DNA of 64,000 nt from Fibrobacter sp. UWB10 (GTDB taxonomy: Bacteria; Fibrobacterota; Fibrobacteria; Fibrobacterales; Fibrobacteraceae), in NCBI RefSeq assembly GCF_900182935.1, contig NZ_FXUE01000002.1, positions 868,001 through 932,000 of the forward strand. Reading direction: 5' to 3'. Made by a program: the position numbers and the translations under genes. Every line of letters starts with the position of its first letter. The first letter of the stretch is position 1. Under the pieces are notes generated by a model, which had not been told where the DNA came from, searched no databases, and saw only the letters and a list, made by a program, of their open reading frames with translations. Of the stretch, positions 99 through 37,043 are shown one piece after another.

Positions 99-159
99 AG
101 AAATGGACTGCCAAATTTTAATCGCCACACGGATTGTACTACGTACTAAAAGTGTGCAA

Positions 160-203
160 GGTTATGACGCAGCAGAAAACTTGTTTTCTGTTATGGCATA
201 ACC
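160..203. repeat. Nested palindrome (cruciform-like)
   Basis: An outer inverted repeat (GGTTATG / CATAACC) encloses an inner perfect hairpin with 8-base arms CAGAAAAC / GTTTTCTG and a TT loop. It is one of several hairpins packed between 160 and 489. No coding sequence is seen here. Confidence 0.6.
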
Positions 204-226
204 GTAGCCACGAACGCCAACGGCGT

Positions 227-309
227 TAAATGCTAGGTTCGGAAGTAGGCTTGCAAGCAATCCTGCTTCTCTCGCCTTACGCATTTATCGAAATCACTAA
301 CGTGATTTC
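227..309 (-). repeat. Hairpin repeat family A, copy 1
   Basis: Read on the minus strand this has an outer hairpin with arms GAAATCAC / GTGATTTC around GTTA, then the conserved text GATAAATGCGTAAGGCGA. A second hairpin centred on GCTTGC follows, then the conserved end CCTAGCATTTA. The copy at 30683-30766 has the same conserved blocks and nearly the same length (83 versus 84 bases). Its stem sequences differ but still pair. Confidence 0.75.
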
Positions 310-352: not shown

Positions 353-367
353 GACGGCTACGCCGTC
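353..367. repeat. Short hairpin GACGGC-TAC-GCCGTC
   Basis: Perfect 6-base arms with a 3-base loop, lying between repeats A1 and B1. Its role is unknown. Confidence 0.5.
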
Positions 368-377
368 CGCGGCGTCA

Positions 378-418
378 CTCGGTCATAGAATCAAACAAGT
401 TTGATTCTGCGACACTCG
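378..418 (-). repeat. Variable-stem hairpin repeat family B, copy 1
   Basis: On the minus strand: CGAGTGTCGC, then a perfect 10-base-arm hairpin (arm AGAATCAAAC, loop TT), then ATGACCGAG. The total is 41 bases. Two further copies at 36288 and 36374 share both flanks but have unrelated stems. Confidence 0.8.
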
Positions 419-454
419 TTTAGCACGCTATGCTTGGACATAATAACTCCCAAT

Positions 455-30493: not shown

Positions 30494-30682
30494 TGTTCTA
30501 GCTTGAACAACAACAAACAGAGTATCGTATAGCAAGAATCTTTATACACCATACGGATTCGATATACGAAACTAAACAAGAGCCTTTGTTTTAGTTGAGT
30601 TAAGTTCTATGAACTAAAAACTAACGTTTTTTCAAGGCTTTTTTATAAAAAAAATTTTTATTGATAAGTATTTTATCAAACA

Positions 30683-30766
30683 GATTTTACGTTAGTAAAA
30701 TCCGATAAATGCGTAAGGCGAATGCTGCAGGTCTGCTTGCAGACCTATAACTGAGCCTAGCATTTA
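30683..30766 (+). repeat. Hairpin repeat family A, copy 2
   Basis: Outer hairpin GATTTTAC-GTTA-GTAAAATC, the conserved GATAAATGCGTAAGGCGA, inner hairpin GGTCTGC-TT-GCAGACC and the conserved end CCTAGCATTTA. Compared with copy 1, three positions in each outer arm changed and all three pairs are preserved. Confidence 0.75.
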
Positions 30767-34443: not shown

Positions 34444-36279
34444 ATGAAAAACGTTGATACGATTGCCGTTTTGGACTTTGGCGGGCAGTATGCCCACCTG
34501 ATTGCTAACCGTGTGCGCCGCTTGGGCGTGTTTACCGAAATCCACTCCCCTGCCGCCTCGGTCTCTGAACTGGAAGGCGTGAAGGGAATCATCTACAGTG
34601 GCGGCCCTTCCAGCGTGTACGCGGCCGACGCCCCGGAATACAATCCCGAAATTTTGGACCTCCCGGTGCCGAAGCTTGGCATCTGCTACGGTCACCAGCT
34701 CATCGCCCAGCAGTTGGGCGGTCACGTGGAACCGGGCAAGGTCAAGGAATACGGCATCGCCGACCTTATCGTGGGCGACGAGAAGTGCCCGATTTTGAAG
34801 GACCTCCCGAAGGCCTCCCCCATGTGGATGAGCCACGGCGACCAAGTCACCAAGCTCCCCGAGGGCTACAAGATTGTGGCCAGCACCAAGGACTGCGAAA
34901 TCGCCGCCGTCGCCTTCGACAGCGACAAGCCCGAACGCCAGATTTTCGGCATCCAGTTCCACCCGGAAGTCACACACAGCAAGTTCGGCATGAAGTTGCT
35001 CGAAAACTTCATCGACTTCACGGGCGCCAAGAAAACTTGGAACATGAAGAGCTACCTACCGCTCATCACGCAGAGAATCAAGGACCAGGTCAAGGACCGC
35101 AAGGTCTTCTTGCTCGTGTCTGGCGGCGTAGACTCCACCGTAGCATTCGTTCTTTTGAACCGCGTGCTCGGACCGGAAAAGGTCCTCGGCCTGCATGTGG
35201 ATAACGGCATGATGCGCCTCGGCGAATCCCAGAAGATTATGGACTTCCTCACGAAGGAAGGCATGAACAACCTCAAGGTCCGCGACGCCAGCGAACACTT
35301 CCTTGAAAAGCTCAAAGGCGTGACTGCGCCGGAAACCAAGCGCGGCATCATCGGTAAGGAATTCCTGACGGTGAAGGACGAGGAAATGGCGAAACTCAAC
35401 CTCGATCCGAACCAGTGGATGATGGCGCAGGGCACCATCTACCCCGACACCATCGAAAGCGGCGGCACCAAGAACGCCGACAAGATCAAGACGCACCACA
35501 ACCGCGTCCAGGAAGTCTTGGACCTCATGGAAAAGGGACTCGTGCTCGAACCGCTGGCCGACCTGTACAAGGACGAAGTCCGTGCCCTCGGTGAAGAGCT
35601 CGGCATTCCGCACAACCTCGTGTGGCGTCACCCGTTCCCGGGTCCGGGCCTCGGCGTTCGTCTGCTCTGCAGCGAAGGCAAGCTCTCCGATGACATGGTC
35701 AAGTTCGAAGACGTGAAGGACACCGCAGGCAACAGCCTCGCCGACTACCTGAAGGCAAACAACATTGCAGGCCGCATGCTCCCCATCAAGAGCGTGGGCG
35801 TGCAGGGCGATGGCCGTACTTACGCACAGCCGTTCCTCATCACCACTCCGGGCCTTAGCTGGAAGGATTGCGAAAAGTTCTCTACTGAACTTGCCAACCG
35901 TTTCAAGGCAATCAACCGCGTCATCTACCAGATTGGTAGCGTCGCCGATGAAGATCCGAAGCTCGTTGAACAGTACGCCACCCGCGAAAACTTCGATACG
36001 CTCCGCAAGTTCGACAACATTTGTACTGAATTCTTGCAGGCAAATGATTTGTACGAAAAGATCTGGCAGATGCCGGTCGTGCTCGTGCCGCTCCGCACGG
36101 CAAACAAGCCCTGCATTGTGATGCGCCCGGTGAACTCCACCGAAGCCATGACCGCAAACTTCGCCGAAATCGACCAGGGAATGCTCGCCGGACTCTGGCG
36201 CAAGTTCGAAGCCGAAGGCGCAGGCAGCCTGTGGTACGACGTGACCCACAAGCCGCCCGGAACTATCGAGTGGGAGTAG
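34444..36279 (+). CDS. guaA: GMP synthase (glutamine-hydrolysing)
   Basis: 611 residues. It converts XMP to GMP using glutamine. The class I glutaminase domain (~8-200) has the nucleophile Cys in LGICYGHQ (~81) and the His in IQFHPEVTH. The ATP pyrophosphatase domain has the P-loop SGGVDST (~224). The C-terminal dimerisation domain ends KPPGTIEWE. It is about 85 residues longer than the E. coli enzyme; extra sequence lies in the synthetase part between the P-loop and dimerisation regions (for example LLCSEGKLSDDMVKFEDVKD), so it belongs to a long-form subgroup. Two B hairpin repeats follow its stop codon. Confidence 0.96.
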   Translation: MKNVDTIAVLDFGGQYAHLIANRVRRLGVFTEIHSPAASVSELEGVKGIIYSGGPSSVYAADAPEYNPEILDLPVPKLGICYGHQLIAQQLGGHVEPGKVKEYGIADLIVGDEKCPILKDLPKASPMWMSHGDQVTKLPEGYKIVASTKDCEIAAVAFDSDKPERQIFGIQFHPEVTHSKFGMKLLENFIDFTGAKKTWNMKSYLPLITQRIKDQVKDRKVFLLVSGGVDSTVAFVLLNRVLGPEKVLGLHVDNGMMRLGESQKIMDFLTKEGMNNLKVRDASEHFLEKLKGVTAPETKRGIIGKEFLTVKDEEMAKLNLDPNQWMMAQGTIYPDTIESGGTKNADKIKTHHNRVQEVLDLMEKGLVLEPLADLYKDEVRALGEELGIPHNLVWRHPFPGPGLGVRLLCSEGKLSDDMVKFEDVKDTAGNSLADYLKANNIAGRMLPIKSVGVQGDGRTYAQPFLITTPGLSWKDCEKFSTELANRFKAINRVIYQIGSVADEDPKLVEQYATRENFDTLRKFDNICTEFLQANDLYEKIWQMPVVLVPLRTANKPCIVMRPVNSTEAMTANFAEIDQGMLAGLWRKFEAEGAGSLWYDVTHKPPGTIEWE

Positions 36280-36287
36280 CGCGGAGC

Positions 36288-36328
36288 CGAGTGTCGCAAA
36301 AATGAGCTTGCTCATTTTTATGACCGAG
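36288..36328 (+). repeat. Variable-stem hairpin repeat family B, copy 2
   Basis: CGAGTGTCGC, a perfect 10-base-arm hairpin (arm AAAAATGAGC, loop TT), ATGACCGAG: 41 bases, the same length and flanks as copy 1. Confidence 0.8.
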
Positions 36329-36373
36329 GCGAACAAGCAGACGCTGAAGCCGTAGGCGTAAGCGTCAATAAGG

Positions 36374-36412
36374 CGAGTGTCGCGACAAAAAATTGCTTTT
36401 GTCATGACCGAG
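36374..36412 (+). repeat. Variable-stem hairpin repeat family B, copy 3
   Basis: CGAGTGTCGC, a hairpin with arms GACAAAA / TTTTGTC, ATGACCGAG: 39 bases. Loss of one GC from a GACAAAAGC / GCTTTTGTC stem would explain the two missing bases. It lies 45 bases after copy 2, within the guaA-DUF436 gap. Confidence 0.75.
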
Positions 36413-36461
36413 CCGCGCGAACACGCGCTTGAACAAAGTGAAAGCGCAATGGGAGTAAGAC

Positions 36462-37043
36462 ATGGCTGGTATTACATACGAAATAGACGACAAGAACCTT
36501 GTCGAACAAATTCGTAACGACGCACAAAACGCCGCGAAGGAAGTTGTCGAAAAGGCCCGCCTCACGGCAGGCAATATCGTGGTTATCGGTTGCAGCACGA
36601 GTTCCACTCTCGGAAACGACATCGGTAGCCATTCTGTGCCCGAAGTTGGCAAGGCCATTTTCGAGGGCTTGCAGTCTGTATTCAAACCACTCGGCATCTA
36701 CATTGCTGCGCAGTGCTGCGAGCACCTAAACCGTGCCATCATCATTGAGCGCGCGGCCGTGCCGAACGCCGAAATTGTGAACGTAGTTCCGCAACCCAAG
36801 GCCGGGGGCTCGTTCGCCACCGCCTGCTACGGAGCATTCGAGCATCCCGTTGCCCTCGAGCATATCAAGGCAGACGCAGGCCTCGACATCGGCGGCACGC
36901 TTATCGGCATGCACCTGAAAGAAGTCGCCGTTCCCCTGCACATGCAGCAAACTCATGTCGGCAAGGCAATCCTGATTGCGGCCCGCACCCGCCCAAAATT
37001 CATTGGCGGCGAACGCGCCCACTACGACGAAACAATGAAATAG
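36462..37043 (+). CDS. DUF436 (TIGR01440, YwlG-like) family protein
   Basis: 193 residues covering the whole family. Recognisable stretches are VIGCSTSSTLG, GIYIAAQCCEHLNRAI, VPQPKAGGSFAT and DIGGTLIGMHLKEVAVP. The function is not established; conserved Cys and Glu in QCCEHLNRA suggest an active site. GGGAG precedes the ATG. It may be read through from guaA across the two B repeats, as no terminator is seen between them. Confidence 0.9.
   Translation: MAGITYEIDDKNLVEQIRNDAQNAAKEVVEKARLTAGNIVVIGCSTSSTLGNDIGSHSVPEVGKAIFEGLQSVFKPLGIYIAAQCCEHLNRAIIIERAAVPNAEIVNVVPQPKAGGSFATACYGAFEHPVALEHIKADAGLDIGGTLIGMHLKEVAVPLHMQQTHVGKAILIAARTRPKFIGGERAHYDETMK

Follow-up and report, generated by a model that had tools for sequence, protein, structure and literature searches.

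A family of folded repeats with free helices, fixed mismatches and copies of the flanking sequence in Fibrobacter and distant bacteria

Hairpin repeats in the window

A GMP synthase gene (guaA-like) lies at 34444..36279 on the plus strand of the window, the whole stretch of 64,000 nucleotides of Fibrobacter sp. UWB10 analysed here, with Pfam matches to GATase (1.6e-40) and GMP_synt_C (1.9e-19). Its 3′ end borders copy 1 of a folded repeat, whose core (u-4 to d+5, 36284..36333, plus strand) scores 72.0 bits with covariance model R1 (E 3.4e-18). This core comprises a CGAG box (36288-36291) that starts 11 bases downstream of the guaA stop codon, counted from that codon's first base, P3 GTC (36293-36295), the P4 hairpin (36298-36319; inner segment AAAAATGAGCTTGCTCATTTTT, perfect 10-bp arms and the loop TT), P3′ GAC (36322-36324) and a second CGAG box (36325-36328). 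Its tandem neighbour 86 bases downstream, copy 2 (core 36370..36417, plus strand, R1 54.5 bits), has a shortened P4 at 36384-36403 (inner segment GACAAAAAATTGCTTTTGTC) with 7-bp arms and a 6-base loop; this copy is worn, and the core at the related site in another species (L012) is GACAAAAAGCTTGCTTTTTGTC. The spacer of the array (36334..36369, plus strand) carries a GACGC..GCGTC hairpin that is P5-like by its sequence, such a downstream hairpin being enriched in the family. A DUF436 gene (36462..37043, plus strand, Pfam 8.7e-71) lies downstream of the array. Copy 3 is on the minus strand (core 373..422, R1 64.7 bits), with CGAG boxes at 415-418 and 378-381 and a P4 at 387-408, whose inner segment AGAATCAAACTTGTTTGATTCT forms a perfect 10-bp stem. 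It is followed by a P5 hairpin, GACGGC-GTA-GCCGTC, at 353..367 on the same strand, identified from the sequence.

A sequence-only reading had described these three copies as 41-base repeats at 378-418 (minus), 36288-36328 and 36374-36412. The coordinates are correct, the flanks are exactly CGAGTGTCGC and ATGACCGAG, and the three inner segments, read directly, all pair, each with a different sequence. The 41-base units are present, but they are only the tip of an element of about 85 bases, which continues into inner loops, an outer stem and a further hairpin.

Two further copies, which bring the total in the window to five, were missed at first because their flanks differ. Copy 4 (233..278, minus strand, 53.5 bits with a second covariance model, R2, E 1.2e-13) has a P3 of GAA/TTC, an 18-base P4 and an outer stem of AAATGC (281-286) with GCATTT (228-233). 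Copy 5 (30715..30760, plus strand, R2 52.0 bits, E 3.3e-13) also has an 18-base P4, and its outer stem is AAATGC (30707-30712) with GCATTT (30760-30765). Just upstream of copies 5 and 4, at the same place, are the hairpins GATTTTAC-GTTA-GTAAAATC (30683-30702, plus) and GAAATCAC-GTTA-GTGATTTC (290-309, minus), which share the GTTA loop, differ in their arms and are followed by CGATAAATGCGTAAGG. A possible worn relative at 158..206 (plus strand) is uncertain, with 29.0 bits in R1 and no match in R2.

Free helices between fixed mismatched joints

The element, approximately 85 bases long, has the layout X - (Y)AAGN - CGAG-n-P3-GC-P4-AT-P3′-CGAG - N′YGAA - X′ - P5 hairpin - X, and its pairing runs on beyond the 41 bases first noted. 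The helices P1 (X/X′), P2, P3, P4 and P5 are free in sequence yet paired, with covariation at every level. What stays constant is a set of mismatches, CGAG against CGAG and GC against AT (G.T and C.A), together with a CTTG-type loop. In order, the outer stem P1 is followed by a joint, usually (Y)AAG, the pair u-1/d+1, the opposed CGAG boxes, a bulged base (most often T) and the three pairs of P3; inward of P3 come GC opposite AT, a P4 of 10 or 8 pairs and the loop. P5 is a second hairpin placed after the outer stem. Most copies have GTC/GAC as their P3, and the other types are GAT/ATC, GCA/TGC, GAA/TTC, GCT/AGC, GTT/AAC, GTA/TAC and GCC/GGC.

Many of the loci come from metagenome-assembled genomes. 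In 42 non-redundant copies, 96.4% of the pairs are formed, compared with 72.1% when the 3′ letters are shuffled and 30-46% when the strands are slid; the covariation of P3 and most of P4 is partly selected, since the collection patterns demanded P3 pairing and most of the P4 pairing. The outer pair, X′ and X are free of this selection. The outer pair beside CGAG is paired in all 42 copies of the modelled set A1, with five pair types, and the outer pair outside CGAG is paired in 96% of 78 copies, compared with 43% expected. The outer stem is present in 74% of 121 copies (22% after swapping upstream and downstream flanks between copies), and the P5 hairpin in 53% of the 121 (6% of shuffles). The non-Watson-Crick pairs of P4 are mostly purine-purine and cluster at two places, stem position 2 and the fifth pair counted from the loop. 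Since such mismatches are G.A on one strand only, the CGAG strand is probably the functional one.

For copy 1 of the window, RNA parameters give the predicted P2-P4 core and DNA parameters give P4 only, and under both the stability of the fold is no higher than that of shuffles. No Rfam 15 covariance model matched the element. The selection for the hairpin proposed in the sequence-only reading is borne out for the folded shape: selection on the fold is needed to explain why the CGAG/CGAG and GC/AT mismatches remain constant when the helices to either side of them covary.

Stem diversity and exchange of whole cores

The 216 copies have 161 distinct P4 stems. Neither a common stem nor a failure of the inner segments to pair, each of which had been named as counter-evidence, was seen. 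As the earlier reading proposed, stems are unrelated between copies with pairing kept, and the elements depart from the conserved stems of ordinary REP elements.

The array downstream of the GMP synthase gene (36288/36374 in the window) indicates how stems come to differ. At its first site, within nearly identical flanks, the core is GTC/GACAAAAAGC.., GCT/GAAAACATGC.. or GTT/AGGGCTGC.., the last with an 8-pair stem, depending on the species. The same cores recur at the third site in other species, so the cores are exchanged as whole cassettes, and in this one well-sampled array such swapping of entire cores between neighbouring sites accounts for most of the stem differences between species. 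Compensatory changes in place were found in P4 (L010/L013) and in P5 (L249/L250). Near-identical copies are also dispersed with different flanks.

G.U accounts for 1.6% of P4 pairs, compared with 12.1% of those in intrinsic-terminator stems from the same genomes' sequence set, a control for which a stricter set of terminators replaced a looser first one. This low share fits pairing or copying at the DNA level. Together with an outer arm that is an inverted copy of host sequence, it lends some support to the alternative offered in the earlier reading, that a copying mechanism renews the stems.

Inverted and direct copies of the flanking sequence

The 36 strong copies of the UWB10 genome are intergenic by simple ORF calling. 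Among 138 non-redundant Fibrobacter copies, the orientation relative to the upstream and downstream neighbours is near random when genes are called as simple open frames (same/same 35, same/opposite 31, opposite/same 26, opposite/opposite 26), so that 26 of the 138 are antisense to both neighbours. Where the upstream gene is on the same strand, the CGAG box begins 4-15 bases downstream of the stop codon's first base in 23 of 73 copies; nothing comparable was found on the other side of the element among the 138.

In these stop-abutting copies, X, which forms the outer stem's 5′ arm, is made up of the last codons of the host gene with its stop codon, and X′, the arm on the 3′ side, pairs with it. 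The complementarity between X′ and the gene tail has a mean score of 11.9, compared with 7.7 ± 0.5 when partners are swapped (maximum of 300 swaps, 9.3). One example (L254) reads ..AACAAGGCATAA TAAGC-core-GCGA TATGCCT-hairpin-CAACGCATAAT. After P5, X recurs in direct orientation (score at least 7) in 48% of the 23 stop-abutting copies (9.5% of swaps) and in 36% of 92 other copies (8% of swaps), the latter partly from arrays. X′ and the second X are also present in single copies outside arrays (L207, L213, L254 and the tRNA cases below). At L207, X′ fits the present gene tail and not the relative's version, which suits copying and later tuning by selection alike. Instead of being copied, X′ could have been shaped by selection for pairing once the element was in place.

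Seven copies in candidate-phyla genomes touch the 5′ ends of seven different tRNA genes (Asp, Glu, Arg, Ala, Cys, Trp and Gly, called by ARAGORN), with the element antisense to the tRNA. Here X consists of the tRNA's own first bases, and the observed match is reached by 3 of 5040 rearrangements for the inverted copy and by 1 of 5040 for the direct copy (n = 7). Since this layout is the same as in Fibrobacter, the order X - core - X′ - hairpin - X is common across phyla. In a Peregrinibacteria genome, a copy follows a tRNA-Lys gene (L263, ~1402-1650), the 3′ end of which, CCCAGGTGGCCCACCA, is repeated beyond the element, and other copies in this genome are followed by sequences resembling tRNA 3′ ends (CCA).

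Element-free relatives were found for two sites, in L093 (compared with L017/L232) and in the window, which holds the ortholog of the L238 site. The gene stops at the same codon in both, so it was not altered by the element. Two other candidate empty sites (L008 and L258) were rejected, as the element is present further downstream behind another insertion, and no convincing precise empty site with a single CGAG box was found among 1.5 Mb of loci.

Distribution of the element and adjoining repeats

The pattern GAGTGTCGC-N(10-40)-ATGACCGAG has six exact matches in the 3.48-Mb UWB10 genome (G000) and none in the reversed control. The search of Fibrobacter genomes with the flanks, as the earlier reading had proposed, gave matches in 34 of 37 genomes of the genus, with controls at 0, and no match in 23 other Fibrobacterota. 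R1 finds 42 matches in the UWB10 genome, about 36 of them strong, and 10 to 98 per genome in all 37 Fibrobacter genomes searched, the high counts being lower bounds as the best 100 candidates per genome were scored; it finds none in the 23 Fibrobacterota relatives outside Fibrobacter. Elsewhere, R1 counts are 65 in a Spirochaetota genome, 10 in a Treponema, 6 in a Peregrinibacteria genome and 3 in the Oscillospiraceae. Among the matches listed in a scan of genome contigs, the hosts are Fibrobacter, and genuine hairpin copies outside Fibrobacter are present in Treponema (L059, L161), another Spirochaetota genome (L071, L117), an Oscillospiraceae (L080) and a Peregrinibacteria genome (L102). R2 finds copies in 2 of 247 Spirochaetota and in 11 of 286 genomes of the Peregrinibacteria phylum, two of which (L336, L337) look chance-like by eye. 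The taxonomic spread is patchy. Pattern matches in Streptomyces, Rhodococcus, Bosea and others lack the hairpin and were discarded as chance, and an association with viruses was rejected on one chance match in viral contigs. Fibrobacter-like copies in records labelled Clostridiales, Gastranaerophilales and Bacteroidetes (L051, L133, L155) may be binning errors. A literature search on Fibrobacter palindromes returned nothing specific.

Several other repeats adjoin the copies. A second family, TATACGAAACT - hairpin - TAGTTGAGTTA - hairpin, with fixed linkers and changeable stems, occurs at 30566-30622 of the window, at L001 (1557-1616), from 1591 onward at L008 and at other loci; at L001 it lies inside the loop of the P5 hairpin of a CGAG-box element. 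A third structured repeat, about 100 bases long and with varying stems (CTCTCGC ... GGCTCACAGA or GTTGCTCACAGA), is located between stop codon and core at L008 and L258 and downstream at L249. Repeats resembling dRS3/CGTC-type REPs, ATTCCCGC..GCGGGAATGACA, flank identical cores on both sides in two Fibrobacter genomes (L293-L298), and copies at L016, L043, L058 and L131 adjoin GTTTCACGTGAAAC / GTTCCACGTGAAAC palindromes resembling parS sites.

Search for a mobilising enzyme

Linkage with a REP-associated transposase, which had been put forward as a check, was not found, and a RAYT/Y1 enzyme was rejected as the mobiliser on the distribution and proximity of PF01797 and NF047646. Y1_Tnp matches are sporadic in about a third of Fibrobacter genomes; they are absent from most Fibrobacter genomes rich in copies and from the Spirochaetota genome with 65 copies, and 14 of the 16 Y1 loci searched have no copy of the element. 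The Y1_Tnp protein that was read in the UWB10 genome is an IS200-type TnpA, and with regard to an IS200/IS605 end or a derived MITE, the resident TnpA is absent from most Fibrobacter genomes with many copies. The RAYT family (NF047646) gave no match above cut-off in the Fibrobacter genomes searched. A reverse transcriptase was rejected on the absence of RVT_1 from the UWB10 genome and most of the genus, and no convincing neighbour gene common to Fibrobacter and the distant hosts was found. The mobilising enzyme may be a host function or one that is transiently present.

Comparison with known systems

Integron attC sites are recognised as folded single strands, with variable helices and fixed unpaired features, and lie just after stop codons. 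The present element shares the fold with sequence-variable helices, the fixed unpaired features and the placement after stop codons, and like attC it conserves its fold and not its sequence. In contrast to attC, its conserved boxes contain no GTT/AAC core sites, and there are no cassettes between copies.

As a short extragenic folded repeat, the element works like a REP, and the closest described kinds are the GTAG REPs and the CGTC REPs (PMC3733652, PMC8266576). GTAG-tagged REPs and BIMEs with RAYT/TnpAREP (PMC8266576, PMC3116915) are likewise short extragenic hairpins in many copies, with arrays, strand-specific features and mismatches inside the stem that matter for recognition. An extragenic palindrome in many copies is found here as well (36 strong ones in the UWB10 genome). 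The element differs in having no GTAG, GGAG or GTGG tetranucleotide 5′ of the hairpin (the consensus is AAGN-CGAG, its GAG part imposed by the search pattern, with no GTAG in the flanks), conserved boxes on both sides, stems that are not conserved within the family, inverted and direct target copies, no RAYT (Y1) gene flanked by copies and many host genomes without a Y1 enzyme. CGTC REPs (PMC3733652) have a terminal CGTC/TGTC tag, an 8-9-bp stem with AT in the first two positions and no known transposase; they resemble the element in occurring in some Spirochaetes and near gene ends and in having no known dedicated transposase. The element has no CGTC tag, its stem position 1 is G-C or A-T and position 2 is variable instead of AT, its stem diversity is far greater, and the X-X′-X layout is not seen in the parts of PMC3733652 consulted here. 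Since the tests of tag, stem conservation and enzyme fail, we do not file the element as a GTAG or CGTC REP. Tandem inversion duplications and template-switch rearrangements (term from PMC4689423; quasi-palindrome mutation, PMC3820800) share the direct - inverted - direct order with palindromes at the turns, and the X-X′-X geometry may be a tandem inversion duplication at a very small scale. Unlike in those rearrangements, the scale here is 8-12 bases, and the same structured core is at the first turn at many loci.

Discussion

The copies share one fold with fixed joints and free helices, exchange their cores as cassettes and carry the X-X′-X order. The dispersed near-identical copies with different flanks and the two filled/empty pairs suggest that the element is mobile, and target duplication, another mark of mobile elements, is present; recent transposition between strains was not seen. 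Recognition of the fold and movement are both read here from sequence comparison. We lean towards the interpretation that the repeats, each of about 85 bases, are mobile DNA of a REP-like, non-autonomous kind, that they act in the form of a folded single strand and that their insertion copies the target flank, probably by snap-back synthesis.

An alternative to mobile DNA is that of a structured RNA element, a 3′ UTR part transcribed with the upstream gene, in which the CGAG/CGAG tandem G.A and the UAA/GAN-like joints form a protein-binding or processing site and the stems covary for the RNA fold. The joints resemble RNA motifs, the core pairing is given by the RNA fold, a few G.U intermediates connect related sites (L010/L013, L009), and an mRNA function would likewise agree with the sense-strand abutment on stop codons. 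We nevertheless consider this reading unlikely, as the orientation is otherwise near random (26 of 138 copies run antisense to the genes on both sides), the tRNA-abutting copies of candidate-phyla genomes lie antisense to the tRNA, G.U pairs are far rarer than in terminators of the same genomes (1.6% vs 12.1%), Rfam has no match, and identical copies are dispersed among unrelated flanks.

The other readings stay at the DNA level. Ordinary REP elements with an unusual tag, moved by a past or present RAYT/Y1 transposase, would explain the extragenic position, tens of copies, hairpin with a CTTG-type loop, arrays and stem mismatches; the missing GTAG tag, the unconserved stems and the distribution of Y1 and RAYT described above speak against them, and duplication of X in the X-X′-X manner is not known from REP insertion; we regard this reading as improbable. 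A history of simple tandem duplication and gene conversion acting on an old repeat, which would make the X copies a by-product of array growth, draws on arrays with a 67-95-base period that have the gene tail within the unit, but X′ and the second X are also present in single copies (L207, L213, L254 and the tRNA cases), which makes it very improbable. Palindrome healing alone, in which template switching during replication perfects imperfect hairpins and stems drift without selection on the fold, agrees with near-perfect Watson-Crick arms, few G.U pairs and the dominance of two-sided changes. It would erase the CGAG/CGAG and GC/AT mismatches, yet these are fixed between covarying helices; entire cores, stem length included, replace one another at fixed sites, and the element is dispersed at unrelated sites. 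This explanation is disfavoured, and we give it hardly any weight.

For the mobile folded element, a plausible course of insertion would begin with a protein that recognises the fixed mismatched joints and not the stem sequence. The hairpin would be joined or copied to a 3′ end at X and then fold back, and snap-back DNA synthesis would copy X into X′; turning again at P5 and returning to the original template would yield the second X. Stems could drift because only pairing and joints would matter, and templated copying could renew the near-perfect Watson-Crick arms. Insertions would persist chiefly at the ends of genes, where the gene stays whole thanks to the copied X.

It is possible, and we propose it tentatively, that the repeats constitute a new class of hairpin recognised only by fold and fixed mismatches, with insertion copying 8-12 target bases, inverted and then direct, and no dedicated transposase, in Fibrobacterota, Spirochaetota and candidate-phyla bacteria. 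The palindromes first noted are one corner of this larger element family. Repeat finders based on conserved sequence would split a family held together by its joints into unrelated hairpins. How short palindromic repeats spread without an enzyme of their own is an open question, for example for the CGTC REPs (PMC3733652), and the inverted and direct target copies in many copies of the element offer a concrete, testable footprint of an insertion reaction. That this footprint recurs at Fibrobacter genes and at the tRNA genes of candidate phyla argues for a single mechanism in different phyla, and the observations together suggest a way of spreading for hairpin repeats that is so far undescribed.
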